The translations under genes and the position numbers were made by a program. Shown piece after piece: positions 34,440 to 61,983 of a DNA stretch of 64,000 bases. How positions within the stretch are numbered: the first letter of the stretch is position 1; each line of letters begins with the position of its first letter. Below the pieces are notes generated by a model. It did no database searches. It saw nothing but the letters and a program-made list of their open reading frames with translations, and was not told the origin of the DNA. The stretch is from NCBI RefSeq assembly GCF_000821185.2, contig NZ_CP050855.1:2418001-2482000 (forward strand), in the 5' to 3' direction. Origin of the DNA: Serratia symbiotica. Its GTDB lineage: Bacteria; Pseudomonadota; Gammaproteobacteria; Enterobacterales; Enterobacteriaceae.

Positions 34440-35977
<1,538 letters not shown>

Positions 35978-36817
35978 ATGAGTGTGGATGCCGTTCTAAA
36001 CGCCAGTAAAGGCCTGATTGTAGCACCTGCGGGATGTGGCAAAACCCACCTGATTACTGAAGCTCTTGGTATTGCGCAAAGTAAGCCGTATCTCGTGCTG
36101 ACGCACACAACCGCAGGTGTCACGGCACTCAAAAAGCGACTGAGCCGTTTTGCAATTCCTCTGCGGAACTATATTGTGACAACAATCGATGGATGGGCTC
36201 TGAAAATAGCAGGCTGCTTTCCGCGATTGTGTCCGCTTGATGTGGGTCCTGAAAATCCAACCGTTTTCTACCCTTCTCTTCGCCGTGCCGTACTGAATCT
36301 GGTTGTTAACGGTAATATTAGCGAAATCATCACGGCCACTTATTCGCGTTTGCTGGTCGATGAATACCAGGACTGCAATAGCCAGCAACATAATCTGACC
36401 TGTGCGCTTTCACGCTTGCTACCAACAGTCGTCTTTGGAGACCCGATGCAGTGTATCTTCAGCTTCAGCGGCCCTATGCCAGACTGGAAAAGCACTGTTG
36501 AAACTTTTTTCCCCACTCTGGCAACCTTACAAGCGCCCTGGCGCTGGAACAATGCACAAACGCCAGATTTGGGTCAATGGATCCTTGAGCAAAGACTTCG
36601 CTTACTTCACCGGGAGCGTATCGACTTGAGATCCTGTCCTGACTATGTACATTTTCGCCCTCTTTCACGAAATCACAATGACAATATCCAGCGCCAGCAG
36701 CGCTAATATTACTCACTGCTGCGACAGTTTCCCAACGACTCGGTTTTAGTTATGGGTGATTCACGAAGAGCGTCATCCAGGCATCAATTTGCACAACGAA
36801 TCACTATTTTTGTTTAA
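35978..36817 (+). pseudogene. UvrD-like superfamily I helicase, N-terminal remnant
   Basis: The frame encodes Walker A LIVAPAGCGKTH (about 13-24), Walker B LLVDEYQDC (about 127-135), a GDPMQCIF motif III and an APWRW segment, as in UvrD-type helicases. A TAA at 36704-36706 interrupts it; the same frame continues with a protein-like stretch (LLRQFPNDSVLVMGD) to 36817 and then stops, so it is truncated as well. Relatives often pair with OLD-type nucleases in phage-defence loci. That link is inference. Confidence 0.75.
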
Positions 36818-36982
36818 ATAGCCCCTTACTACATTGACTAATTCTTCTTTTTTTTTTGCTTTTTCAAAAATAGGTGCTGATATTATACCTTCTTCTATGG
36901 CATTTTTATATGTATATATATGAGTGTTCTGTGTCAACATCAAAAATAAATAAGTCGTTTCGGTATGGTGTGGCAGTCACTA

Positions 36983-37474
36983 TTATTTTTTTGCATTAAA
37001 CCTGCGAATAACCCCTCCCCATTCTGGAGATGGTTCGGAATGGCCTTCATCAATAATGACCAACTCAAATTCATCACATATTTTATTTATTTCCTCGCTG
37101 TTGATTTTGAGTAATTTTTGGAAGGTAGTACAAAAGACCCCTCTATTACTTTCTTTATTGATGTTGTTGTGCACATCTTTAATTGTAAGTGATTTAGATT
37201 TATCCGAGTCGGTTAATTTAGTAAAAAAATCACCTCTAATCTGTTTATACAACTGATCGCAAACAGCTCTTCGATAAGTAACAATTAATATTTTTTTATA
37301 TTTACTGAATTGACTTAGACAACATATAACACCACTTTTCCCTGCCCCTGTCGGCAAGCTTATAAGACATGAGCCAGAAGAGCGCGATCTAAAATATTTT
37401 GCCGCTACACTAATACTTTCTACCTGACATGTTCTAAGTTTTTCTTCTACTTCAGTTGGTGTACCATTGTACAT
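36983..37474 (-). pseudogene. DEAH-box helicase, N-terminal remnant
   Basis: 163 residues containing helicase motif I SLPTGAGKSGVICCL (about 38-52), motif Ia LIVTYRRAVCDQL, and motif II VIIDEGHSEPSP (about 138-149). The rest of a superfamily II helicase (motifs III-VI) is missing, so this is a truncated gene or, less likely, a short stand-alone domain. Strongly A/T-rich. It resembles the restriction-type helicases found in defence islands. Confidence 0.7.
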
Positions 37475-37974
37475 TTAAATTCCTCTTATAATGAAAAAAC
37501 GCTGGATTAGAACCTTATATAAGGATAGACAAGGGACTGAAGAAACTCATTCAATTGGAAGCTAACTGGCTACTAGGGATTGAGCTTATATCCCTTCTGG
37601 CAAACCCAGTCAGCCTTGCCAACGCTGCCGCCCCCAGAGACATCAGTGCCGATTAAGTATAGGCATATCCGAATGTTATCAAAACTCATGAGTTGTTCAA
37701 GAAGACAATTAGATAATCCCTAAAGTTTAGTGCGCTTGGTCGTGCAATTACGATGGGAAATGATTGATGAACTGAAGTAAGTAAGCTGTCAGAAAATGCT
37801 CATAAGAAGCATATTCTTTGTTAGTTCATGAAGTTCTCCTGAAGTGAATTTATATTTTTATTAAAAATACCAATTTAAATCAAAGAGATATAGTTACTGT
37901 AGATTATGAACTAGATTCACGCTTAACATAAGTTAAATAACCTACATCGACCGAGGTGGAGCCAGGGGCGCGCG
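37475..37974. other. Degraded island DNA
   Basis: 500 A/T-rich bases with no supported gene. A few protein-like scraps occur (for example a 25-codon frame from about 37490), but none can be assigned. Confidence 0.5.
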
Positions 37975-38136
37975 ATGTCTGACACCTCAAGTTTGCTGTT
38001 AATACAACCAGCATCCAGCCAGATAACCTCCATTCCCATCAAAGTATCGCCAGTTTCACAACAGCAGACCGGTGTTTACCTCAACCGCATCTCTGCAAGC
38101 CATTCAACGCAGCGTTACTACATGTTCGGTAGTTAG
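37975..38136 (+). pseudogene. Tyrosine-type integrase, N-terminal fragment
   Basis: A 53-residue frame starting MSDTSSLLLIQPASSQ contains IPIKVSPVSQQQTGVYLNRI and SASHSTQRYYM. This resembles the N-terminal arm of plasmid or transposon site-specific recombinases, where a Ser/Pro-rich start is followed by VYL...L...S...R. It ends at a stop and no catalytic domain follows. The assignment rests on pattern memory only. Confidence 0.4.
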
Positions 38137-38139
38137 CAA

Positions 38140-38368
38140 GGGACCTATTTCCTGGTGCAAAGTCTGCCCGCTTCGTCATTTGTGTAACCAGCAGACGCGT
38201 ATACCTCGGAAGGCAGAGGTTGCACAGGTTGTTGTCGTAGATTGAGTGATCACTGCCCTATTCCAGCCATCGTTCAATATGGGGTTTAGACGGAAAGCCC
38301 CCGTGATACAGATCACGCAACTGAAAGATACGCTGACGATGCAGTTTATTATGTGCTTGATAAGTCAT
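38140..38368 (-). pseudogene. Unrecognised degraded coding sequence
   Basis: From ATG at 38368 the minus strand reads a coherent basic peptide (LHRQRIFQLRDLYHGGFPSK), meets an amber stop at 38258-38260, and continues open and protein-like (LPRYTRLLVTQMTKR) for another 40 codons. I do not recognise the family. It may be a plasmid or transposon gene with a nonsense mutation. Confidence 0.35.
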
Positions 38369-38541
38369 TGACGTTGAAATGTATCACCAAAAAATCTTAT
38401 GAATTAGGAATGGTCTTAGTTTTCATTAATGCATTATATTTCAATTGGATGAGTAAAATGTAACGGATGAGTAACAATTTAATAACAAAAAACACTTCCC
38501 ATATACCATATGCACTGCTACATATTTGAGCATAATTTACA

Positions 38542-38566
38542 TATAAATAAACGAGAATGATTTTCA
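38542..38566 (+). promoter_or_regulatory. Promoter region with Fur-box-like site before the biosynthetic operon
   Basis: CGAGAATGATTTTCA (38552-38566) matches the Fur consensus TGATAATNATTATCA at 11 of 14 defined positions. TATAAA at 38542-38547 could be the -10 element, which would put transcription start inside the Fur site, a classic repression layout. No convincing -35 is seen. Iron control is therefore predicted, not shown. Confidence 0.6.
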
Positions 38567-38586
38567 ACTCCACGAATGGATGCATG

Positions 38587-39393
38587 ATGAAAAAAGCTAA
38601 AAAGTGCCTTGCCTGTGTGGATGAATTGCCTGTATTCGAAGGTTATCTCGTAGACGTGTGGGGTGTCTTATACGATGGCCAATCGAAAACTCATATTGCC
38701 GATGATTTGATCCGGAAAATGAAAATACATGGCCGGATCGCACTCGTGAGCAATACCTCACGCTCGTCGGAAGAGTTGGCTTTATTACTGGACGATAAAG
38801 GGATTTCAGGAACATTTATTGATGGAATTTTCACGTCTGGAAGCCTGTGCAAAGAACGAATTACTCGCCATTTTGCTGCCAATCCACAACACACTTTCAT
38901 CCTAGTGGGCACCGCCGGTGAATGCCACTGGCTTACTACGATTTTTGATCGACAAGTCTCTTCTATCGAAACATGTGATTTTGTTATTGCTGCAAACATC
39001 ATTTATGAAAATGATGAAGAGATCGAAAGGTTAGTAAGAAAAATCATAGGAAGAGGGTTAGTCGTATATTCAACGAATCCGGATAAACTTGTCAATATTG
39101 GAGGTCGTATTCATAAGGCTGCGGGGTACTTCTGTCAAAAAGTGAGAGAAGCCGGTGGTACTGTTTACGAGTATGGCAAACCTAATACGGATATTTTTAA
39201 TATTGCATTGGCAGGGATTGGTGTGAAAAAAGCAAATGCTTGCATGTTGGGGGATTCGCTAGAAACGGATATTTTGGGAGGGAATTCTGCGTCACTTAAA
39301 ACCATACTGGTCGCTGGATGTGGTGGTTTGCAGTATAGCGAAGATGAATTAAATGAAGGGTTGCATGATTATATTCTAAATCTACAGGGGTGA
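38587..39393 (+). CDS. HAD-superfamily (subfamily IIA) phosphatase-like protein, biosynthetic operon gene 1
   Basis: 268 residues from ATG 38587, chosen because GGA lies 6 bases upstream; ATG at 38584 and 38557 are alternatives, the last overlapping the Fur-like site. HAD motifs are motif I LVDVWGVLYDG (nucleophile Asp23), motif II ALVSNTSRS, the motif III Lys in YEYGKPNTDIF, and motif IV MLGDSLETDILGG. The motif I +2 position is Trp25 instead of the usual Asp. NagD-type cap. Likely dephosphorylates a pathway intermediate (inference). Followed after 2 bases by gene 2. Confidence 0.85.
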   Translation: MKKAKKCLACVDELPVFEGYLVDVWGVLYDGQSKTHIADDLIRKMKIHGRIALVSNTSRSSEELALLLDDKGISGTFIDGIFTSGSLCKERITRHFAANPQHTFILVGTAGECHWLTTIFDRQVSSIETCDFVIAANIIYENDEEIERLVRKIIGRGLVVYSTNPDKLVNIGGRIHKAAGYFCQKVREAGGTVYEYGKPNTDIFNIALAGIGVKKANACMLGDSLETDILGGNSASLKTILVAGCGGLQYSEDELNEGLHDYILNLQG

Positions 39394-39395
39394 TT

Positions 39396-40517
39396 ATGTA
39401 TAAGGTACTTATCATTGGTTCAGGTATCCTTTCTACGATGGTTTCAGAGATGTTGGCTTGGAGAAATTTTCCGTGCCAGGTAACGATTGCTGCCAGGAAT
39501 GAAAATGCTGCAGACGAAATTGTGAACCTGATAAAATTCACGTCAGAGAATGTTGGCCATACATTTAATATATCGTCAAAAAAAATCAACCTTGACTCTG
39601 TTGAGGAAATGGCGGAAATCATTAGTGATATTGAACCTGATTTAATTTTCAATACTGCTTCAGTTCAGTCATTTTGGGTTGTTTCAGAACTGCCCGATCA
39701 TATCAGCAAAGCATTATGGTCCGCAGGCGTGGGCCCCTGGACCGCATGCCATGCCTATCCGGCACTCCAATTGATGAAAGCAATAAAAGCCTCCGGTGTA
39801 AAAACGACGGTAGTCAACGCGGCATTTCCTGATGCAGTGAATCCGTTGCTTAAGGGCATAGCACTTGCCCCTGATATCGGCATTGGCAATGTCTCAAATA
39901 TTTGTCAGCCTATCCGCGAGGCGGTTTCAAAGATTCTCAATAGTGACATATCTTCAATCTCCGTCAAAATAGTCGCTCACCACTATGTTGGCAATACCAT
40001 TCCCTCAGAAGGACATGCAAAGGGCGCGCCTTATCATTTGAGCGTAAAAAATAATGGGGAGGAAATCAGTCAGGACATGTTACCGCACGATAAAATCTTC
40101 AAACACATCAAAACAGACTTAAAGAGAAAAAGAGGAAAGGACGGTATGTTTGTAACTGCCAGTTCGGCAGTGAGAATTATTGAAGGCTTTTTCGGTGATA
40201 AAACGATAGCGGCACATGCACCAGGTGTCAGGGGCTTAGTCGGAGGGTATCCCGTCACCATTGGCAGGCGAACTTTCGATGTGGCGCTCAATGACGATAT
40301 TTCACTCTCAGACGCGATCAGCATCAATGAAAAAGGCCAGCGGTATGATGGGATTGACAGTATCCAGGACGGTTATATCCGGCTCAAGCAAGAATCCTCG
40401 GATGTCATGAATGCCCTGATGGGATTTGGGCTCGGGGAATATCATATTTCTGAGGTCGCTGAGGTGTCCGCTGAGTTGGTACAACGCTATCAAACGTTGA
40501 GGAGTAAACATGTCTAA
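39396..40517 (+). CDS. NAD(P)-binding dehydrogenase (saccharopine dehydrogenase-like), operon gene 2
   Basis: 373 residues. The N-terminus MYKVLIIGSGILSTMVSEM is a Rossmann dinucleotide motif (GxGxxS), followed by TIAARN after the second strand. The middle region has NAAFPDAVNPLLKGIALAPDIGIGN and a later VGGYPVTIGRR. Overall it resembles saccharopine/opine-type oxidoreductases, but I cannot name a substrate. The start is 2 bases past gene 1 (a GTG at 39390 would overlap it). The end overlaps gene 3 by 8 bases, implying coupled translation. Confidence 0.75.
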   Translation: MYKVLIIGSGILSTMVSEMLAWRNFPCQVTIAARNENAADEIVNLIKFTSENVGHTFNISSKKINLDSVEEMAEIISDIEPDLIFNTASVQSFWVVSELPDHISKALWSAGVGPWTACHAYPALQLMKAIKASGVKTTVVNAAFPDAVNPLLKGIALAPDIGIGNVSNICQPIREAVSKILNSDISSISVKIVAHHYVGNTIPSEGHAKGAPYHLSVKNNGEEISQDMLPHDKIFKHIKTDLKRKRGKDGMFVTASSAVRIIEGFFGDKTIAAHAPGVRGLVGGYPVTIGRRTFDVALNDDISLSDAISINEKGQRYDGIDSIQDGYIRLKQESSDVMNALMGFGLGEYHISEVAEVSAELVQRYQTLRSKHV

Positions 40518-41883
40518 CCTTCTCTTCCACGCATACAAAAATGCGCGCAACGTCCTGTCCGGAAACGATGAAACCGGTATGAAAGTCTTTCCGGGGATGT
40601 TTGACAGCGATGTCGTTTCTCTCTCTCACGGCGACGGCACAAGACGACCTCAGTGCGGCATTATTTCTGCGGGGGTTTTAGCATTGCTCGATGATCGTTA
40701 CTCCCCTGATGACTACCATGTGATGACGCATAATGCAGAGTTGGAAACCTGGATCATCGATGATTTCAAGGCGGATGGGATACATGAGAGTCTCGCCAAC
40801 AATATTGTGCTGTCACACGGTTCGACCAGTTTCTTTGATGCCATATTTACTTATTATATCGGAAAAGGACGTCGTTATTTAGTGCCTTCTTCGTTCTATC
40901 ACAACCTGATAAAGTGGTCAGCGTTATATCACGAACATCTTACGTGCCAGTATACGAAGATTGAAAATGATTATAAACTGACAGCGGAAGAATTGTCTAA
41001 ATCGGTATCAGAAAAAGAAATTGATACACTGTTCTTGTTTAATCCTACGCAAACCGGTGCGATTTATACAGATGCTGAGCTCATGGCACTGTCTAAAGTG
41101 TGTATTGAATTTAATATAGCGGTTTTTGTAGATAGTGTTTTTTCTGGTACGGAATTTAACGATGAGGAGAGAACTCCTCAGATGGCAAAATATTTTACGC
41201 AGCATCCTGACAATATCGTAACGATTAAAAGTGCTTCCAAATTTTTAAATCTGGCCAATGTCAGGGTGGGTTGGGCATGTGGTGGGGAGAATATTATCGC
41301 AGCGCTGCGTGATATCTGTTCTGCGAAAAACCCGTCGATCTCAAATGTGGCACTGGAAATGGTCAAGTACGGTGTTCTACACTGTCATGAATATATCAGA
41401 GAAAACAATCTGGAAAGTGCACAACGTGCGCGTATTATTGATGCGTCTGTGTATGACATCAATAACTCTCTGGGGGAGCAGGTGATAAACACCACGCATA
41501 AACCAGCCGCAGGGCACGGATTTTTGCTCGATTTCGACTATTTGATCAAGGCGACGCACGGGCGCATAAAGTCAGGCTGCGATCTGGTTGCGTATTTGCT
41601 TAAAGAACAGAAATTGTCCCTGTCCCCTGCGGATTCTCTTGGTTTCACCGGGTGTAAAGTGAGAGTTGCTTTCTCATCCGTCGGGCTCAAGTCAACCTAC
41701 CTGGATAGCGAATACGAGCGCAACGTGGCAATGGACAGCATCACTATTGGCCGCGTGCCAGTGACCGCATTGAAGATCCCTCGCAGGCAGCATACCGACT
41801 ATTTTGATGCAGGCCGAGGTATTCTGGACCATTCGCTGAGAAATTCCTTGCACACTGCATTAGCTAATTTACTGAAAAACTAG
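40510..41883 (+). CDS. PLP-dependent aminotransferase, class I/II fold, operon gene 3
   Basis: 457 residues. Fold-type I features are FNPTQTGAIY (NPxNPTG-like), the cofactor Asp in AVFVDSVFSG, the Schiff-base lysine probably Lys244 in IKSASKFLNLANVRVGW, and a C-terminal Arg in GCKVRVAFSSVG that would hold a substrate carboxylate. It could transaminate a keto acid made by the gene 2 enzyme. Start overlaps gene 2 by 8 bases; gene 4 begins 9 bases after its stop with AGGAGA as ribosome site. Confidence 0.85.
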   Translation: MSNLLFHAYKNARNVLSGNDETGMKVFPGMFDSDVVSLSHGDGTRRPQCGIISAGVLALLDDRYSPDDYHVMTHNAELETWIIDDFKADGIHESLANNIVLSHGSTSFFDAIFTYYIGKGRRYLVPSSFYHNLIKWSALYHEHLTCQYTKIENDYKLTAEELSKSVSEKEIDTLFLFNPTQTGAIYTDAELMALSKVCIEFNIAVFVDSVFSGTEFNDEERTPQMAKYFTQHPDNIVTIKSASKFLNLANVRVGWACGGENIIAALRDICSAKNPSISNVALEMVKYGVLHCHEYIRENNLESAQRARIIDASVYDINNSLGEQVINTTHKPAAGHGFLLDFDYLIKATHGRIKSGCDLVAYLLKEQKLSLSPADSLGFTGCKVRVAFSSVGLKSTYLDSEYERNVAMDSITIGRVPVTALKIPRRQHTDYFDAGRGILDHSLRNSLHTALANLLKN

Positions 41884-41892
41884 GAGATAAAT

Positions 41893-43134
41893 ATGTCAGT
41901 TATTGCTGTTCTTGAGTCAAACCTGGCAGGCAATGGTACCTTAGTCATTCAGGCGGCCAAACTAAAGGGTTATAAAACGCTTTTTGTCTGTGGAAATAAA
42001 GCGGAATACGCCAATACCGTGATTAATCCGATTGATTTTGCGGATGAAGTGGCCGTTGTTGACTCTTATGACATAGCCAAGCTACTGGCCTTCTTCCAGA
42101 GTTACCCGGATACGGTTGACGCAGTCATGGCATTTGATGACTTTAGAATGATACAGGCCGCGCTCATTAATCAGTTCCTTAACCTGCCGTATGCGCCTGC
42201 TGTTGAGGCATTATTGACGGTGCGATTTAAACATTTGTTAAGAGAAAAACTCAACAATACTGCGTATGCAATTGACTTTACACGTTTGGCGGGTGACAGC
42301 ACAGCCCATCAAGCGTTATTGAAATACCCATGTGTAATCAAGCCGGTAGATGAAAGTGGCAGCATCGGTGTCAAGGTGTGTCATTCAAAATCGGAGTCGG
42401 ACGAGGCTATCGACTATATTCTGTCTCTACCAAAATATAATGGTCGCGGGTTTACCGTTTCAAAAGACATCCTGGTTGAAGAGTTTATTACCGGGGAAGA
42501 ATACAGTGCCGAGTTGGTTTGGGATTGTGAAAATGAGGACTGGAGACTGCTTGGCGTTACGCAAAAATTTGTTACTCCTCCCCCGTTTTGCGTCGAAAAG
42601 GCCCATATTTTTCCGTATGCAGACGGCAGTGAATTTTCAGAGCAGGTGAGCCTGCATGCCAACCGTATACTTAAACATATTGGTCTGCGAAATACGTTTT
42701 TACATATGGAATTTAAATTCTCCGATGGGCGCTTTGATGTCATTGAAATCAATCCGCGCTTGGGGGGAGACATGATTATCGAACTCATGAAAAATGCGAA
42801 AGGGTATGATGCAGCTGGTCTTATGTTGGAAGCGAATATCAATCAACCTTTGAGTATAGAAAACACAGGCGTACAGGGGGATGCTTCGGCTATCGTGTAT
42901 ATCACAGATAGTCGCTGTGGACATATAACCGATATTACCGTCGAGAGTGATGGGGACATTTTCTCCCGGATCAATATTTTTTCGCTCCCAAAAACACTGA
43001 AAGGGTTGCGCAGCAGCGAAGACCGGTTGGGGTATGTCATTTTAAATAAAGACCGTTATCAGCAGATTGAGCTGCGTGTTAACGCTCTGCTTGATGGTAA
43101 TGGTTTCAATATTACCCAGTCGGCATTGTCCTGA
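41893..43134 (+). CDS. ATP-grasp ligase, operon gene 4
   Basis: 413 residues of the ATP-grasp carboxylate-amine ligase type. Visible are the nucleotide-binding strand KYPCVIKPVDESGSIGVKV, the EEFITGEEYSAELVW segment, and the metal-binding FDVIEINPRLGGDMI. The N-terminal pre-ATP-grasp region begins MSVIAVLESNLAGNG. Length and motifs resemble L-amino acid ligases such as BacD. It probably forms an amide or peptide bond with ADP release; the substrates are unknown. Confidence 0.85.
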   Translation: MSVIAVLESNLAGNGTLVIQAAKLKGYKTLFVCGNKAEYANTVINPIDFADEVAVVDSYDIAKLLAFFQSYPDTVDAVMAFDDFRMIQAALINQFLNLPYAPAVEALLTVRFKHLLREKLNNTAYAIDFTRLAGDSTAHQALLKYPCVIKPVDESGSIGVKVCHSKSESDEAIDYILSLPKYNGRGFTVSKDILVEEFITGEEYSAELVWDCENEDWRLLGVTQKFVTPPPFCVEKAHIFPYADGSEFSEQVSLHANRILKHIGLRNTFLHMEFKFSDGRFDVIEINPRLGGDMIIELMKNAKGYDAAGLMLEANINQPLSIENTGVQGDASAIVYITDSRCGHITDITVESDGDIFSRINIFSLPKTLKGLRSSEDRLGYVILNKDRYQQIELRVNALLDGNGFNITQSALS

Positions 43135-43165
43135 CTTGACAATACATTTTATTTTGGTGGTGAGC

Positions 43166-44335
43166 ATGGTAAATAAAATTGGTTTTATCGGCAGCGGTAA
43201 ACTGCTTTTAGATCGCGCGAAGTCGTTTGGTCTTTATGTGGTACTGATTCAAAAACAGTCACTTGCTTCGATGGAAGCTATTGCACTGGCAGACAGTGTT
43301 CTGCTGTGTGACTATGATGCCGCTGATAATAAAAAGATGATATTGGATTTCTTACGGGAGCAACGAATCGAAAAGGTCCTGACGCTTTCTGAGAAAGCTT
43401 TGCCAGCAGCGGCATGGATAAATGACGAATTATCGTACGATACTAAAAATAGTACGATCGCTGAAATAGTCAAAAATAAAATATTAATGCGTGATAGGCT
43501 TAGGGCAACCCCCTACGGTAATGTCAACTATCATGCGGTCCATTCCGCCAATGATCTGTCTCGGGCCGCTGCCCAGCTCGGATTTCCGTTTATTCTGAAA
43601 CCATCTCGGGGTGTGGGAAGCGAAAATGTTCATCTTGTTGTCGATGATAAGCAACTTTCGACAATAAACGTTCTGCAGACATTAATCGCAGAACAGTACA
43701 TCGGGGGAAAGGAATATTCCATTGAGGCATTTTCTGTCAATGGGGTACATACCGTTCACGCGGTCACCGAGAAATCCCTGTTTGATAATGAAGACTCCCG
43801 GTTTGTTGAGCATGGACATGTTGTCTCCAGGGAGAATAATGATGGGCCGTTTTTTGCCGCGATCGATGATTTTGTCTGTGGCTTCTTATCCCTTATCGGG
43901 ATTGAGTCCGGCGCGACCCATACCGAAGTGAAGGTCGATCTGAGTGGCATACACATCATTGAGTCCCATAATCGGGTCGGCGGCGACAGTATTCCTGAAT
44001 TGGTTTACCATGCGACGGGAGTCGATCTGTATTCACTGGCGATACAAGATGCGTCGGGCCTGCCTTTGGATAATACGCGCAAGTCGGTGAGCAATAATAG
44101 TGGGATTCTCTTCTTTGATTTTGAACCTGGTCAGGTCAGTAGTCTTTGCGGTGAACAACGTGTTAAACTGTTACCCTACGTCAAAGACGTAAGTTTACCT
44201 GAACTCATCAATGCGCCACTTTCCCGCCCCGTCGATTCTTTTTCACGTAATGGCTATGTGATTTGCAGCACACCCGAGGATGTGAAAAGTAAGCTCGAGC
44301 TGTGCCAAACCCTGATAAAACCGATATACATTTGA
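43166..44335 (+). CDS. Second ATP-grasp ligase, operon gene 5
   Basis: 389 residues from ATG 43166, preceded by GGTGGTGAG; frames extending into gene 4 are unlikely. Motifs are FPFILKPSRGVGSENVHLV, LIAEQYIGGKEYSIEAF and HIIESHNRVGGDSIPEL. In the last, His replaces the Asn of the usual EINPR-type motif, though Glu and Arg remain. It is clearly related to but distinct from gene 4. Two ligases in series suggest a product with two amide bonds. Confidence 0.82.
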   Translation: MVNKIGFIGSGKLLLDRAKSFGLYVVLIQKQSLASMEAIALADSVLLCDYDAADNKKMILDFLREQRIEKVLTLSEKALPAAAWINDELSYDTKNSTIAEIVKNKILMRDRLRATPYGNVNYHAVHSANDLSRAAAQLGFPFILKPSRGVGSENVHLVVDDKQLSTINVLQTLIAEQYIGGKEYSIEAFSVNGVHTVHAVTEKSLFDNEDSRFVEHGHVVSRENNDGPFFAAIDDFVCGFLSLIGIESGATHTEVKVDLSGIHIIESHNRVGGDSIPELVYHATGVDLYSLAIQDASGLPLDNTRKSVSNNSGILFFDFEPGQVSSLCGEQRVKLLPYVKDVSLPELINAPLSRPVDSFSRNGYVICSTPEDVKSKLELCQTLIKPIYI

Positions 44336-44368
44336 GTGGGAACAGTCAAATATGATTCAGGACGCAAA

Positions 44369-45589
44369 ATGAGCAGAACTAACTATATACTCATGTTCGT
44401 TATGCTAATATCTTGTGTTAGCATGTTTTCGTTTTTCCCTTTCCTTGTCACTATCCTGACAGGGCATTATGCCTTTACTGCTGCTGATGTGGGCATCATG
44501 ATGTCAGTGGGTATTATTGCTGGCAATTTATCCTCTGTCATTGTTTGCATGTTTTTGTCTGAAAAGGTGTATAAACCTGTATTTACGCTGGCACTGATGG
44601 TGTTCTCTTTGGCCGCTTTTGGTTTTTACTTCGTCAGCAATATCTCCAGCACGGTTTATCAGTATGTCCTTCTTTTGTGTTGTGTTGTACTTTATCGGTT
44701 TTCTGTGGGCGTCTATTATAATATCTCGCGCGCGTATCAAATTTACTCGCTCGATAAAGAACACGAGAAGTTAAGATTATTTTCTAATATAAAATTTGTT
44801 AATAGTATCGGTGGCGGGCTCGGACCAGTTATTGGACAAGCCCTCATCAATTACGGGGGGTATGGCGCTCTATCAGTTTTTTGCGCGATCACTTTTTTGT
44901 TCGCAGCCATATTGGTTTTTCTGTTTGTTCCCGGTGTAAAGAAGTCTCAGCCGGCACAGTTTGTAAATGTGTTTCAAGGCATTATTCAGATTATTCGCGA
45001 CAAAGCTTTTGTACTGCTTTCTTTGGGGGCGCTTTTTCATTATATCTTCGAAGCGCAGATATACACATTCATTACGTTAAAAATAAAAGAGAATGATATT
45101 CAGGATGGTGTTGCCTATATTTTTACATTGAACTCGATTTTCCTAATTGTTTTTTCTTTTTTTGGCGGGAGAGTGATAAGGAAGATTGACAAACTTCCAA
45201 AAATATCCATTTTGGCCTTTGGTAGCTTCTGTTCATGCCTATCATTGATTTCAACGCCCCTGGTATCTGGCTATTTTGGATTGGCTTTTGTAGTTTTTAT
45301 TTTCTCTCTCGGTGAATATCTGGTACCACAATTGGCTGTGGATTTAATTACCGATACACCAGAAAATACGTTACAGAGAATAACATTGTTCAATTTTATG
45401 ACGAGTGCAATCGGCCTGGGTATAGGGTTCATATTCGGTTCTTATTTGTCCACAGTTGGCAACCTTTCCGTCGTCGCTATCTCGTGGATTACCATCCTGG
45501 TGCTGGTATGCCTGCTTTTCTCTCTTGGCCTGAGCGCCAGTCGTGCACAACGCAGTGCGGTGCTGCCTGCCAATGTGTCTGAAAAGTGA
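44369..45589 (+). CDS. MFS transporter, operon gene 6
   Basis: 406 residues from ATG 44369, preceded by AGGAC. There are twelve hydrophobic segments. The N-terminus is MSRTNYILMFVMLISC, and the conserved periplasmic/cytoplasmic loop residues are weak. Its position as last gene of a biosynthetic operon suggests export of the product, though import cannot be excluded. It is followed by a hairpin. Confidence 0.85.
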   Translation: MSRTNYILMFVMLISCVSMFSFFPFLVTILTGHYAFTAADVGIMMSVGIIAGNLSSVIVCMFLSEKVYKPVFTLALMVFSLAAFGFYFVSNISSTVYQYVLLLCCVVLYRFSVGVYYNISRAYQIYSLDKEHEKLRLFSNIKFVNSIGGGLGPVIGQALINYGGYGALSVFCAITFLFAAILVFLFVPGVKKSQPAQFVNVFQGIIQIIRDKAFVLLSLGALFHYIFEAQIYTFITLKIKENDIQDGVAYIFTLNSIFLIVFSFFGGRVIRKIDKLPKISILAFGSFCSCLSLISTPLVSGYFGLAFVVFIFSLGEYLVPQLAVDLITDTPENTLQRITLFNFMTSAIGLGIGFIFGSYLSTVGNLSVVAISWITILVLVCLLFSLGLSASRAQRSAVLPANVSEK

Positions 45590-45612
45590 GGGAAAGTAAA
45601 CATTGGGCGACA

Positions 45613-45645
45613 CCGACCGGGTGATTGCCTTGTCCTGGTCGGTTT
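45613..45645 (+). terminator. Probable terminator of the biosynthetic operon
   Basis: CCGACCGGG (45613-45621) pairs with CCTGGTCGG (45634-45642), with a G-T pair and a 12-base loop. The T tract is only TTT, so it is weaker than a textbook terminator. Confidence 0.5.
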
Positions 45646-45752
45646 ATGCTATGGCCCTGAGTGTTGTTACATACCGGCGTGCTGGTACTGATGTTTAACG
45701 TTATTTTCCCACCACTGGGCTGCGTTCCTCATTCAGCTGTATTTGCACCGGC

Positions 45753-45872
45753 ATGCCCTCTTCCCGCCTCGACAAATACCGCTGGTCTCCGCAGAAAACG
45801 CTGTGGCAATGCTGGCGTAAAGAGCGAAAGTCGCGGCACAAGCAACGACTGGCCGAGAGGAATAATGCATGA
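45753..45872 (+). CDS. Small basic hypothetical protein
   Basis: 39 residues, very rich in Arg, Lys and Trp (LDKYRWSPQKTLWQCWRKER). Its stop overlaps a downstream ATG by 4 bases (ATGA). It lies at the start of a plasmid-like stretch. No ribosome site is strong and no function is recognised. It could be spurious. Confidence 0.35.
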   Translation: MPSSRLDKYRWSPQKTLWQCWRKERKSRHKQRLAERNNA

Positions 45873-45970
45873 GCGGTTTAGTGGTTCCGGAGTTCTCCCC
45901 GGCGATGCCTGCGCAGTCGCCGGTATCGGGATTTCTCATTTATAAAACCACACAGAAAGGTACAGGTGTT

Positions 45971-46762
45971 ATGGGAAGCATGAAAGACCTGATGCTGGAT
46001 ATTGAAGCTGAACGATTTGATGAATGGTTTGCGGAAAATTACCCGGATGTTATCCCCGACTCTGAAGAATGGGAGCAGGAGGCGCTTGCCGATCAGGCTC
46101 AGTGGGATCATGAACACGAGCTGTTTGTGGCTTCCCTGAACAATGTTCGTCAGCGTTACCTGCACGCAAATCAGGAGCTGAAGAAGTTATATGCCCTACT
46201 CGATAAAGAACAGCCTGAACTGGTGTACAGGATGTCTTTCGTCCATGCTGTGACGGTCATGGAGGCGTATCTGATGTACTGCGCCAGGGCCCTGCTGGAA
46301 CATGACTAGCCCCTTAAACGCTTCAGGGATGCGTATTACATGAAGTCCAAACGAATCAAAAATCCGGAAAAACATGCTGCCCGTGACATGGGTCTGTCTC
46401 TGTTCCGCCCTGCGGCGCAGAATGTTGTTTCCCGAATGACATTTCATAACGTTGAAACCATTGAGCGCTATTTCGGCGCCGTGCTGCACATCCCACCCGT
46501 CTGGCCGGTTAAGCCGCTGGGCATCATCGCAGAGTGGCGAAACGACCTGGTGCACCGTAACGGCGTGGATGAACATGATGTGCCAAGAGCGATATCCGCG
46601 CAGCAGCCACAGAATTCCCTGCAGAGAGTATCTGACCTTATAGAGGCGGCACACCAGTCCCTGCGCCTGGAAGTGGGCTATTTCGGTAACTTGCGTAATG
46701 AGGAAAACTGGGAAATTATAGCGTCAGCACTGAACATACCTCCAGCCGGAGAGGCCTCCTGA
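45971..46762 (+). pseudogene. HEPN-domain-like protein interrupted by an in-frame amber codon
   Basis: One frame of about 263 codons beginning MGSMKDLMLDIEAERFDEWF is interrupted by TAG at 46307-46309. Reading continues in the same frame (PLKRFRDAYYMKSKR) to 46762. The second half contains AEWRNDLVHRNG, an RxxxxH motif typical of HEPN RNases and related domains. A longer start at 45869 is possible. Its stop overlaps the next start (TGATG), as in an operon. Probably a plasmid gene inactivated by a nonsense mutation. Confidence 0.6.
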
Positions 46763-47469
46763 TGACCGGGCTTGTTACCCTGGGGCAGCCAGGAACTGCA
46801 ACTCAGTTGCCTGTGTCCATCGACTACCCGGCTGCGCTGGCGCTGTGCCAGATGGCACTGGTACAGGACGAACTGCCGAAGAGCGCCCTGCTCCACTATG
46901 TGCCGGATCTGCACTGCAAGATGTTGCTGGCTACGTTGTGGAATACCGGCGACCGGATTAACGAAGCGCTGGCGCTGACAAGGGGGATTTTTCGTTGGCA
47001 CCGCCCTACCCGTTCGCGCAGTTGGCCACGCTCAAGCTGCGGGCAGAAGAAGGCCGCGCGAACCGCAGGCTGGCAGCTCGGCACACCGCCTGGTGCCGAA
47101 GTCTGATCCGCAGTACGTCGCGCAATTGCAGACCATGGTGGCCACGCTGAAAATTCCACTGGAACGCCGGGATCCCAAAAACGGTCGCATGGAGAAAGTA
47201 CGCCTGTGGACAATCACTGACAGAACGGCAGCGCAGGATGGTGTGACGTTCTCGGTCCCCATCACCCCGCACACTTTCCGACACAGCTACGCGATGCATA
47301 TGCTGTATGCCGGTATTCCACTCAAGGAGCTGCAAGCGTTGATGGGGCACAAGTCGATCAGCTCGACTGAGGTCTATACGAAGGTGTTTGCGCTGGATGT
47401 GGCTGCGCGGCATCGGTGCAGTTCTCGATGCCGGAAGCGGAGGCGGTGATGATGCTTAAAGGTCGGTAG
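46762..47469 (+). pseudogene. resD: F-plasmid-type resolvase ResD, frameshifted and internally deleted
   Basis: Pieces match the F-plasmid D protein (a tyrosine recombinase) across frames: GTATQLPVSIDYPAALALCQ, ALLHYVPDLHCKMLLATLWN, then VAQLQTMVATLKIPLERR, and finally VTPHTFRHSYAMHMLYAG-like and LMGHKSISSTEVYTKVFALD in another frame. The last part has the HxxR and the nucleophile Tyr (EVYTKV). At least three frame changes and two deletions are present, so it is not functional. It marks integrated plasmid DNA. Confidence 0.8.
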
Positions 47470-47495
47470 TGAATGGCCGATAGGTAAAAACAGGC

Positions 47496-47524
47496 AGGCC
47501 GGTCAAGTGACCGGCCTTTTGTCT
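47496..47524 (+). terminator. Terminator after the resD remnant
   Basis: AGGCCGGTCA and TGACCGGCCT form a strong stem followed by TTTTGT. Well placed to terminate the plasmid-derived operon. Confidence 0.8.
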
Positions 47525-47564
47525 CCCTGGTGTTTCCTAGCGTATTGCATGGTTGGTGTCTCTG

Positions 47565-47611
47565 ATGTTTAGCAACTCTAAACAAGTCTGATGTTAAGTA
47601 ATGCTAAACAT
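47565..47611 (+). promoter_or_regulatory. Paired operator-like repeats upstream of the XRE regulator
   Basis: Two 17-base near-palindromes, GTTTAGCAACTCTAAAC (47567-47583) and GTTAAGTAATGCTAAAC (47593-47609), are spaced 26 bases apart, each preceded by CTGAT. Such tandem dyads before an HTH gene are typical autoregulatory operators. Confidence 0.6.
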
Positions 47612-47640
47612 GTTGTCAATCCTTTCTATGACGGCAGACC

Positions 47641-47889
47641 ATGGTTCCCCAACGACTGAAAAGTGCCCGCCTTCAGGCTGGGCTTACACAAGAGAAACTG
47701 GGTGTACTGGCGGGTATTGATGAAGCCACTGCCCGTTCGCGGGTCTCCCAATACGAGAGTGGTACCTACACCCCGTCCTTTACGACTATGTGCGCACTGG
47801 CACGTGTACTTAACGTCCCTGAGTGTTATTTCTATGTGCTGGACGAGGGGTTTGCGGAGAAAGTTTTATTGCTTCACGTTAAAAACTGA
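47641..47889 (+). CDS. XRE-family helix-turn-helix regulator
   Basis: 82 residues, almost entirely one HTH_3 domain. LKSARLQAGLTQEKLGVLAGI is followed by RSRVSQYESGTYTPS and LARVLNVPECYFY. Such short proteins are phage or plasmid repressors or antitoxins. Two dyad operators lie upstream, suggesting autoregulation. No partner gene follows; the next sequence is an IS remnant. Confidence 0.85.
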   Translation: MVPQRLKSARLQAGLTQEKLGVLAGIDEATARSRVSQYESGTYTPSFTTMCALARVLNVPECYFYVLDEGFAEKVLLLHVKN

Positions 47890-48497: not shown

Positions 48498-49666
<1,169 letters not shown>

Positions 49667-49738
49667 TGAAGCACCTGTAATGTCCTGAGGTGAGCATATC
49701 ACCTCTGTTCAGGTGGCCAAATTCAGTGTGCCACTACA

Positions 49739-56729: not shown

Positions 56730-57898
<1,169 letters not shown>

Positions 57899-58639
57899 TG
57901 AAGCACCTGTAATGTCCTGAGGTGAGCATATCACCTCTGTTCAGGTGGCCAAATTCAGTGTGCCACTACAAATCAATGCATTCTTCTCGGTATAGACTTT
58001 GGCAACAGCAACACGGCTATAAGTATCAATAAAGGTTTGCTGATAAATTCTGCCAATCCCTTTGATATTGCCGACATAATAGGTGTCTTGTGCACCCAGA
58101 TAGCCTGGGTACTGTGTCTCTATTTCACCGTGAGCTTCTCGTTGGGATTTAGCTTGCTCCAGTGCCTGCAACTGAGCCTCGGTGAGAACACCGCCCTCCT
58201 GAGCCATCTTGGTTTCCAACGCAGTGAGCCGCTTTTTAAAGCATTCCAAATCATATCGTCACCAAACAGAACGAACCCCGCTGCCTGAAATCAGTATTCC
58301 TTGGCGACACGGTGCTAGCCATAAGCGGGGAATTCATAGGCCATATTTACGACGGCTTGTTCGATATGAGCTTCAACACGATTTTTTTCGATAGGTTTTT
58401 TACGACTGATTTCCTGTAGCGCCAACTCACCACCTTGTTCGTAAAGCGTTTTGAAACGATAGTAGCGGTCTCTGCTGTAGCCCATAATTTTACAGGCTTC
58501 CCGAACATTACCCAGTTGTCGTGCCAGTTCTCACAAACCGAGTTTAGGTTTAATGATTTTTGCTGTCTGATTCATTTTTCGCCTCTCTGGTATTTTTTAT
58601 ATACAACAAGAGAGGTCAGTTCAAGTAAGAGCTACTACA

Positions 58640-59499: not shown

Positions 59500-61983
59500 A
59501 TGCTTCCTGTCAATAATAACCCTTATCAGCCTTTTCAGACGGGTCTCCGTTCTGCAAGGGATGCCACATCTTCAGACAATGTTTCTCACACGACAACCGT
59601 TCCACTCAGACCCGATGAGTATTATGCCCTCTGGTCTGAGTGGGAAGAAAATGCCCCACCAGGTATGGGGGAGAAACGGGACATCGCAGTGGCAAGAATG
59701 CGCGAGTGTCTGGAAACAGGCAGAGAGTTGCTTGACCTGGCTGAACTACAACTCAGTTCGTTGCCCGAATCCCTTCCTCCATATATCAGGGAATTAATTG
59801 CTTATGGCAACCACCTCAGTAAATTACCTGATAATTTACCAGAGACACTGATTGCTATTAATGCTTGCGATAATATACTCATGGAAATCCCCGCAAACAT
59901 CCCTCCTAGGCTTATATCTTTTTATTTAGAAAACAATTATTTGGAAATAATATCTAGTAATCTACCCGATACCATTGAGGACCTTAATTTAGCTGAAAAT
60001 AGATTATCAACCCTGCCAGCTCATCTACCTAATAACCTGCGGTTCTTAGATTTACGAGATAATCAATTTCAAACAATTCCTGCTTCCCTTTGGCGTCTTC
60101 CATCGGAGGCTAGCGTTTATTTGGATAGTAATCCGTTTTCAGCACGCACCCTCCGCAGATTCATGGATTGGGTTCAGATGGCAGATTATACCGGGCCACA
60201 TTTCCTTTTCTCCATGTCAGAATACAGGGCTGATGCCCCGCCCCGTCCCTTGGGTGAAGCGGTGAAAGACTGGCTGTCAGCACAGACGGCAGAAAGTGCC
60301 TGGGCAGCCATGGAAAAGGAGGATAACGCAGCGGCCTTCAGCGCGTTCCTCAGCCGCCTGGGCGAAACCCAAAACGCGCGAGAAAATCCGGCATTTAAGG
60401 CGCGGGTGTCTGACTGGCTGACCCGCCTGGCAGAAACCCCCGCGCTGCGGGAGACAACATTTGCCGTAGCCCAGGAGGCCACCACAAGCTGCGAAGACAG
60501 GGTGACACTCGCCTGGAACGATATGCAGAAAGTGGCGCTGGTGTATGACGTTGAAAGCGGTACCTGGGATGACAGACTGCCGGAATTAATGACTGCCGGA
60601 TGCGAGATGTTCCGTCTTGAACAGCTTGAGCAGGCAGCCCGTGACAAGGTTAAAACGCTCCGGTTCGTTGATGAAGTTGAGGTTTACCTGGCATACCAGA
60701 CCGGCCTGCGCGATGCACTGAGGCTGACCTCTGCGGGAGAAAGAATGCGCTATGGTGACGTCTCCGGCGTGACGCAGGAAGACCTGGATCGGGCACTGGT
60801 ACAGGTCAGAGAGCGGGAAAAACGGGCGTTTCCCACCTGGCTGGCACAGTGGACCCCCTGGAAAACGGCGCTGTACCGGGCCAGCCCCGGATTTGTCGAG
60901 AACATGCAGGAGCAGCAGACAGGGGCTTTAAACGACACTTATCGTCAGCGCGTGGATGCAGAACTGAAGGCCGCTGGGGTGGAGGGTATTGCTGATGCCG
61001 AAGTGGCTGTTGGCAAAAAAGTCTGGGATGAAATGACGGGTGAGAACGAGACTGCCCTTACCCGCGCGTTCCTGCAAAACCGGTACTGTGCTCTGATGGC
61101 TGATAAGCGCCCGGAGCAGGCCCTGAAAGCCGTGATTGAACTGACTTCGGTTGCTGCCTCCGCCCCTGCGGTGGCGGCTATGGCAGTCCGACCCGGCAAT
61201 GTCAACGAGGCCCACCCCGGCAGCCTGCTGGCAACCAGGGTAGCAGCAGGCGGAATGGCTCCCCTTGCAGAGGCATGGGTTTCTTTATTACACCGGTTGT
61301 ACGAAAACAAATACCTCGACAAAGAGGAGGTAATATCAGCGCTGCTGCCGCATAAAAAGGAGCACAGCGTTGGATCCCTCGCCCATGCCATTGCCGGCGC
61401 AGCATGGAATTCTGAGGCCGCAACGAAGCTTTGCGCCCTGCTGTCTGACGTTGCCGGCAGCGATGAAAATTCACGTCAGGACATCATGGCGCGTCTGTCT
61501 CTGAAGTTGCCCGGCTCCAGGCTCAGTCAGCTTAAGCGTAACCAGGCTGCAGATTTCTACGAACAGGCAAAAAAGGCAGATAAATTCAGCCGAAATGAAG
61601 CGGCAAAAGCACACCTGAAAGAAGGGGGACTCGTTCCAGAAAACCGGGAACTGTACAGAATGGTTTCCAGAGCACAAACCGGAGTCCGGCGAACTAAAAA
61701 TCCGAAATCCAGTTTTGAAGCCCTACAGGAAAAAATTAAAGAAAAAATCACTCCGCAGGTATTGGCATTATTACATACTGCGATGGCGAGAGAGAAAGCT
61801 GAGCTGGATCGAGTTAAAATAACGACCAGAGAACAGTTGGATGGTCAGGGAAAAGAGGTGAAAAAAAGGACACAACAGGCACCACCGCACAGTCAAAACA
61901 GACAAGAAGAAACTGTGGACTGGGAGATAGCTATAGCTCAGGCAGCTAAGCGACAGAGGAACCAGGAGGAAGTCGCTGGGTGA
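59500..61983 (+). CDS. LRR-NEL type III effector, predicted E3 ubiquitin ligase (IpaH/SspH/SlrP-like)
   Basis: 827 residues. An N-terminal LRR cap (YYALWSEWEENAPPGMGEK and ARMRECLETGRELLDLAE, about 40-82) is followed by about six 20-21-residue leucine-rich repeats (about 84-210, pattern LxxLPxxLPxxLxxLxxxxN). The NEL domain runs from about 240: catalytic Cys331 with Asp333 in TSCEDRVTLAWNDMQK, then GCEMFRLEQLEQAARDKV, EVEVYLAYQTGLR and MRYGDVSGV. Unlike IpaH, about 270 further residues follow (helical, Ala- and Lys-rich). Such effectors are injected by type III secretion and ubiquitinate host proteins; no secretion genes lie in this window. Framed by long inverted repeats. Confidence 0.9.
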   Translation: MLPVNNNPYQPFQTGLRSARDATSSDNVSHTTTVPLRPDEYYALWSEWEENAPPGMGEKRDIAVARMRECLETGRELLDLAELQLSSLPESLPPYIRELIAYGNHLSKLPDNLPETLIAINACDNILMEIPANIPPRLISFYLENNYLEIISSNLPDTIEDLNLAENRLSTLPAHLPNNLRFLDLRDNQFQTIPASLWRLPSEASVYLDSNPFSARTLRRFMDWVQMADYTGPHFLFSMSEYRADAPPRPLGEAVKDWLSAQTAESAWAAMEKEDNAAAFSAFLSRLGETQNARENPAFKARVSDWLTRLAETPALRETTFAVAQEATTSCEDRVTLAWNDMQKVALVYDVESGTWDDRLPELMTAGCEMFRLEQLEQAARDKVKTLRFVDEVEVYLAYQTGLRDALRLTSAGERMRYGDVSGVTQEDLDRALVQVREREKRAFPTWLAQWTPWKTALYRASPGFVENMQEQQTGALNDTYRQRVDAELKAAGVEGIADAEVAVGKKVWDEMTGENETALTRAFLQNRYCALMADKRPEQALKAVIELTSVAASAPAVAAMAVRPGNVNEAHPGSLLATRVAAGGMAPLAEAWVSLLHRLYENKYLDKEEVISALLPHKKEHSVGSLAHAIAGAAWNSEAATKLCALLSDVAGSDENSRQDIMARLSLKLPGSRLSQLKRNQAADFYEQAKKADKFSRNEAAKAHLKEGGLVPENRELYRMVSRAQTGVRRTKNPKSSFEALQEKIKEKITPQVLALLHTAMAREKAELDRVKITTREQLDGQGKEVKKRTQQAPPHSQNRQEETVDWEIAIAQAAKRQRNQEEVAG

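Follow-up and report, generated by a model that had tools for sequence, protein, structure and literature searches.

According to the accessible part of PMC11867202, the phosphonoalamide cluster pnaABCD of Streptomyces combines an aminotransferase with two ATP-grasp ligases, one of which makes a dipeptide (PnaC) that the other attaches (PnaB). The accessible part of the Pantoea PNP-1 paper (PMC4010436) describes genes other than those reported below, and the Eh318 cluster presented there, with genes for a major facilitator superfamily (MFS) protein, an ATP-grasp enzyme, a sulfotransferase, and an aminotransferase, differs from them too. Herein, we analyzed a 64,000-nucleotide stretch of the Serratia symbiotica genome (contig NZ_CP050855.1, positions 2,418,001 to 2,482,000 of the forward strand), hereafter called the window, in which an open reading frame (ORF) scan found six intact ORFs on one strand at 38557-45589. 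They encode a HAD-IIA protein, a dehydrogenase, a pyridoxal phosphate (PLP) enzyme of the aminotransferase superfamily, two ATP-grasp ligases, and an MFS transporter. As far as the available text of PMC11867202 goes, the aminotransferase and the two ATP-grasp ligases follow the same enzyme logic as the phosphonoalamide pathway. However, the operon adds a dehydrogenase of the lactate/malate dehydrogenase (LDH/MDH) fold and the HAD-IIA protein, and phosphoenolpyruvate (PEP) mutase was not detected in the same genome at an E-value of 0.001. The operon is probably a small mobile biosynthetic cluster that makes and exports a peptide-like molecule without a nonribosomal peptide synthetase (NRPS), for which we infer the order and chemistry of the steps, the amide bonds, and the direction of transport.

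No described pathway with this six-gene set turned up in searches of the open-access literature, and the accessible part of the Serratia symbiotica paper PMC8275996 makes no mention of such an operon; the initial annotation, made from the DNA letters alone, had likewise recognized no described pathway. Its account of six intact, tightly spaced genes on one strand was borne out by the ORF coordinates, with spacings in gene order of +2, -8, +9, +31, and +33 bases when ligase 2 is taken from the ATG at 43166. The six family labels were backed by Pfam and NCBIfam, that of the dehydrogenase weakly by sequence and clearly by the modeled fold. The coordinates of all features are collected in the table.

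Table. Features of the six-gene operon and its surroundings (window positions)
Feature	Coordinates	Strand	Remark
HAD-IIA protein, family TIGR01459	38557..39393	+	start 38557 or 38584
Dehydrogenase, LDH/MDH fold (modeled), saccharopine-dehydrogenase-like N-terminus	39396..40517	+	
Fold-type-I PLP enzyme, aspartate-aminotransferase superfamily, rare subfamily with Phe211	40510..41883	+	
ATP-grasp ligase 1, L-amino-acid-ligase-like	41893..43134	+	EINPR motif
ATP-grasp ligase 2, L-amino-acid-ligase-like	43166..44335	+	weak LAL_C2; ESHNR motif
MFS transporter, presumed exporter	44369..45589	+	Pfam/NCBIfam
Presumed promoter and leader	38379..38556	+	within block common to S. silvae
Fur-like site, 12/15	38552..38566	+	overlaps likely start codon
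3' hairpin, possible weak terminator	45606..45650	+	
Putative transferable unit	38379..45621	+	sole part of window matching S. silvae L002 (8985-16226), 95.0% nucleotide identity
UvrD-type (helicase) ORF	35978-36706		partial domain
ResIII-type (restriction-type) ORF	36983-37474		partial domain
Phage-integrase C-terminal half	47093-47449		partial domain
ORFs without family match	starting 45869, 46340, 46762		

The block shared with S. silvae, about 7.2 kb long there, lies at a different locus, and both of its flanks are unlike those in the window. In S. silvae, a dapE-type gene and its small neighbor stand on one side of it and an RND-pump gene on the other, labels that come from reading the translations. 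DDE transposase remnants flank it on both sides and share an 85-base direct repeat (L002 7980-16700), as in a decayed composite transposon; the insertion sequence end found in S. silvae was not found in the window with up to two mismatches allowed. The guanine plus cytosine (GC) content of the operon was 43.8%, versus 51.0% in the rest of the window. The operon appears to move between bacteria and to be shared by Serratia-type genomes at different loci. In the S. silvae copy the HAD gene is frameshifted near codons 150-158, and the other five genes are intact.

The six-gene operon is under purifying selection at the protein level. Nei-Gojobori counts for the window genes against the S. silvae copies gave ratios of nonsynonymous to synonymous change (dN/dS) of 0.103 for the dehydrogenase, 0.085 for the PLP enzyme (456 of 457 codons), 0.114 and 0.172 for the two ligases, 0.223 for the MFS protein, and 0.21 for the HAD protein (first 150 codons only), at dS values of 0.09-0.19; these ratios sum selection along both lineages and do not describe present-day selection in this strain. 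Selection, earlier called likely because the genes are intact, has thus been measured, with dN/dS at 0.085-0.223.

The operon is rare. The PLP enzyme was present in one of the 30 genomes of its genus (the window's own) and in one of seven genomes of the neighboring genus to which S. silvae belongs. A 32% identical relative occurred in one of 327 genomes of a rhizobial-type family, and a profile search gave matches in 2 of the 279 genomes of its class. The 227 genomes of the presumed Vibrio genus gave no match, an empty search answer that is not evidence of absence. Dehydrogenase matches at an E-value of 0.001 were obtained in 56 of 394 genomes of the order, strong only in the window's genome and S. 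silvae; the other 54 were at 2.7e-20 or weaker and mostly covered the first 90 residues only. At 1e-15, the dehydrogenase was found in 6 of 398 genomes of the phylum, its own included, and distant dehydrogenases were found in one of 296 genomes of the presumed Vibrio family. In G581 (L035 8300-13542), one strand carries two distant dehydrogenase relatives separated by about 2.8 kb. A dehydrogenase relative in G958 (L033 4926-12114) may belong to a cluster that also contains HAD, transaldolase-like, sulfotransferase, short-chain dehydrogenase/reductase, methyltransferase, and MFS genes. Beyond the species representatives covered by these genome searches, other strains do carry it, as the protein database includes Serratia entomophila (P0121) and a partial ligase 1 from S. 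marcescens (P0139). The PLP enzyme had no match in plasmids (E-value limit 1e-30) or phages (limit 1e-10), dehydrogenase relatives occurred in 22 plasmid records, every one below 60% identity, and ligase 1 relatives in six plasmid records at 26-29% identity. With the operon DNA as the query, there was no match in plasmids (distant search mode) or E. coli (near mode), and eight stretches of viral contigs fitted the search pattern, none of which was confirmed.

The operon probably works along the lines of established ATP-grasp peptide pathways, but with another headgroup module. In this module, the HAD protein would act with the dehydrogenase and the PLP enzyme to convert a central metabolite into a non-standard amino acid or something closely analogous. 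Carboxylates would be activated as acyl phosphates by the ATP-grasp ligases, which would make two amide bonds and yield a product resembling a di- or tripeptide; each ligase might add one amino acid, or one might build a dipeptide that the other attaches, in the manner of PnaC and PnaB. The MFS protein would export the product, which is most likely a peptide-borne antimetabolite or a signal against competitors or hosts. The cluster is short and has no NRPS or polyketide synthase genes, and its core appears to occur in a genus of plant-associated bacteria as well as in a marine one. With six genes, it is small enough for expression and chemical readout.

Both ligases matched PF13535. They are only 25% identical to each other and carry different motifs (EINPR in ligase 1 versus ESHNR in ligase 2), so that the earlier description of two different ATP-grasp ligases holds. 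The structurally solved L-amino acid ligase BL00235 (3vot) was matched by ligase 1 at 1.4e-9 and by ligase 2 at 2.7e-18, and BacD (3wo1) by ligase 1 at 1.1e-4; both proteins are far from the characterized L-amino acid ligases. Matches to the dapdiamide A synthase DdaF (NF041595) were weak, at 53.6 and 47.1 bits, far under the 840-bit cutoff.

The catalytic residues of the three other enzymes seem to depart from the textbook pattern. The HAD protein matched TIGR01459 at 120.6 bits (cutoff 103.75). In an alignment of eight rows, two of them partial rows from S. silvae, it keeps the Asp nucleophile, SN(T/S/A), the GKP lysine, and the GD(S/N)LxTD motif. The second Asp of the DxD motif, which is the general acid/base of HAD phosphatases, is replaced in all seven sequences covering the motif (D-x-W or D-x-F, with Trp in the window). 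In NCBIfam, the PLP enzyme scored highest against the guanitoxin enzyme GntC, at 69.3 bits, far under the cutoff of 415, and its nearest solved structures by profile search were aspartate aminotransferases. Sixteen sequences were aligned, namely the window protein, 14 of its 15 relatives (one at 22% identity was dropped), and one from G1197. K244, N178, D208, R252, and R385 are kept in 16/16, and we take these from the motifs to be the PLP Lys, Asn, Asp, and Arg and the carboxylate Arg. Residue 211, presumably the position of the Tyr that contacts the PLP O3' in class I aminotransferases (again assigned by motif), is Phe in all 16. The initial annotation had listed dephosphorylation and transamination among the steps, and both are doubtful given these replacements.

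For the dehydrogenase, PF03435 scored 20.6 bits, under the cutoff of 25.1, and the modeled structure clearly points to an LDH/MDH fold. The alignment comprised the window protein and 26 of the 120 listed relatives. In a weak alignment to a three-MDH profile (28% probability, 18% global), the catalytic His position is His196 in 27/27, the Asp position is Asn in 27/27, and the substrate-Arg position is Pro in 19 and Gln in 8 of the 27. The enzyme seems to lack the substrate Arg of LDH. Tentatively, the dehydrogenase, the PLP enzyme, and the HAD protein may constitute an undescribed headgroup module with off-textbook sites that makes a new amino-acid warhead and is plugged into different assembly systems. 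These systems could, with the same reserve, be in Serratia the pair of ATP-grasp ligases, of which at least one also occurs in Agrobacterium and Vibrio, and in an alphaproteobacterium a lanthipeptide synthetase. If the module does make a new amino acid, its three unusual active sites would add to known enzyme chemistry, and an antimetabolite might be gained as well.

The company of these genes in distant lineages was compared through protein database relatives, numbering 170 for the dehydrogenase (best 120 listed), 15 for the PLP enzyme, and 75 for ligase 1. Relatives of all three proteins had the same longest-contig value in A. vitis (417796), V. mediterranei (703265), and a metagenome (14221), and relatives of two of the three did so at 150548 (Vibrio sp.), 141742, 7372, and 3468. 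Identities in the nearer group (14221, 417796, 7372) were 73-79% for the dehydrogenase, 69-71% for the PLP enzyme, and 65% for ligase 1; on the vibrio-type contigs, they were 48-50%, 53%, and 43-46%, respectively. Because these proteins are co-listed in distant lineages, they look like a conserved three-gene core that is moving horizontally. As to the conserved synteny that the initial annotation proposed to look for, all six genes stand together in S. silvae, albeit with the HAD gene frameshifted; in the distant lineages it may extend to three of the six genes, whose adjacency is inferred.

Two further clusters link the PLP enzyme to different partners. In the distant genome G1197, a 774-aa PLP-HAD fusion lies between a LanM-type synthetase (DUF4135 + LANC_like) and a dehydrogenase, followed by a methyltransferase; identities to the window proteins were 32% for the PLP part (residues 10-400), 32% for the HAD part, and 31% for the dehydrogenase. 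In G1455 (L047 8858-16870), a PLP-enzyme relative occurs near an ATP-grasp ligase, an MFS gene, and a haem-oxygenase-like redox protein, and a second ATP-grasp-like ORF was assigned by reading the sequence. The PLP enzyme is thus partnered with ligases and an MFS protein in the latter and with a HAD protein and a dehydrogenase in the former. An arginyl-tRNA-synthetase-like ORF was observed next to the G1197 cluster (L040 5411-13185).

Several results weigh against the biosynthetic reading. The frameshift in S. silvae means that the HAD protein is dispensable or that this copy is decaying, and the apparent departures of all three module enzymes from textbook sites mean that their reactions may differ from their names. 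The core genes would be adjacent in A. vitis and Vibrio judging from equal longest-contig values and names, not from DNA, and the co-listed proteins are ligase 1, the PLP enzyme, and the dehydrogenase. At 255 aa, the dehydrogenase record of A. vitis covers 67% of the window's protein, so that this copy may be broken or misannotated. The G1455 cluster gave no match to the window's dehydrogenase or HAD protein. On three rhizobial plasmids, a TIGR01459 HAD gene and the dehydrogenase gene are instead accompanied by an alanine-racemase gene, and the neighborhood looks catabolic, with ABC, solute-binding, or peptidase genes nearby.

These plasmids favor a catabolic or detoxifying operon, in which the MFS protein would import, the dehydrogenase, the PLP enzyme, and the HAD protein would degrade, and the ligases would conjugate or recycle amino acids. 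We consider this unlikely, since a relative of the three-enzyme module adjoins a lanthipeptide-synthetase gene in G1197, and the combination of one MFS gene with two distinct ATP-grasp ligases is generally a better fit to export-coupled biosynthesis. That the operon is a relic, a recent arrival kept intact through youth alone and without present function in a reduced genome, would agree with its low GC content, the surrounding fragments, and the broken HAD gene in S. silvae. Nevertheless, dN/dS is far below 1 in all six genes, a value that reflects both lineages together and not selection today, and the relic explanation seems rather improbable. A phosphonopeptide pathway of the phosphonoalamide type, in which the PLP enzyme would make phosphonoalanine and the ligases the tripeptide, has in its favor the enzyme logic seen in the available text of PMC11867202 and a dehydrogenase relative in G836 (C64) located 4.7 kb from a PEP mutase that scored over the cutoff. 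However, PEP mutase gave no match at an E-value of 0.001 in the window's genome (G000) or in S. silvae (G296), whereas the same search gave matches in four of six genomes (one over the cutoff) and 6 of 14 controls (none over the cutoff). With PEP mutase not detected in the window's genome, this pathway was rejected as highly improbable.

A Fur-controlled metallophore operon, whose product would chelate iron or another metal and be exported by the MFS protein, is quite unlikely. The 12/15 Fur-like site is unchanged in S. silvae, and by arithmetic the chance of such a hit within 200 bases upstream is ~0.6-2% at either the observed or the expected frequency of sites, which is suggestive at most. 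On the other hand, the site overlaps the likely start codon, which could alone account for its conservation, and the window is rich in such sites: there are seven matches at that stringency, in six places, versus 1.87 expected; none of 100 shuffles reached seven, and the best match lies inside the aminotransferase gene. Fur control itself, suggested by the initial annotation, is a possibility and no more. Reading through the ORF lists around the S. silvae copy, most of which were not family-searched, revealed no recognizable receptor or other iron-uptake gene.

The biosynthetic operon had also been described as bounded by a promoter-like region and a hairpin. The hairpin (45598-45652) folds at -21 kcal/mol (z -2.68), and only 2 of 200 shuffles fold as well, but its stem is followed by just three U, and it was not among the sites of the terminator scan. 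The promoter signal is weak, with one 9/12 sigma-70-like site upstream of the first gene (38368-38395); across the whole window, the scan gave 24 sites versus 16.4 (sd 4.0) expected, a slight excess. About 180 bases 5' of the first gene are inside the block common to S. silvae.

The surroundings of the operon span from tgt (34440-35615) to tRNA-Arg and folD (50459; 50994). Seven other ORFs were scanned at 35978-47886, of which three have partial domains, three have no family, and one small helix-turn-helix ORF is apparently whole. Almost everything else in the island had been called broken, and the partial-domain fragments agree with this for the part of the island that was checked, but the helix-turn-helix ORF does not. 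The chromosomal genes outside the island (tgt, secD, secF, folD, and cysS) look whole. At 46762-47449, an apparent tyrosine recombinase extends over two overlapping frames, with a Pfam phage-integrase match in the C-terminal half only. A pair of ORFs (279 and 112 aa) at 48498-49702 has integrase-core and transposase domains, and a second pair with the same lengths and strand lies about 8.2 kb away, at 56730-57934. An 827-aa ORF at 59500-61983 carries leucine-rich repeat and novel E3 ligase (NEL) domains and is type III effector-like.

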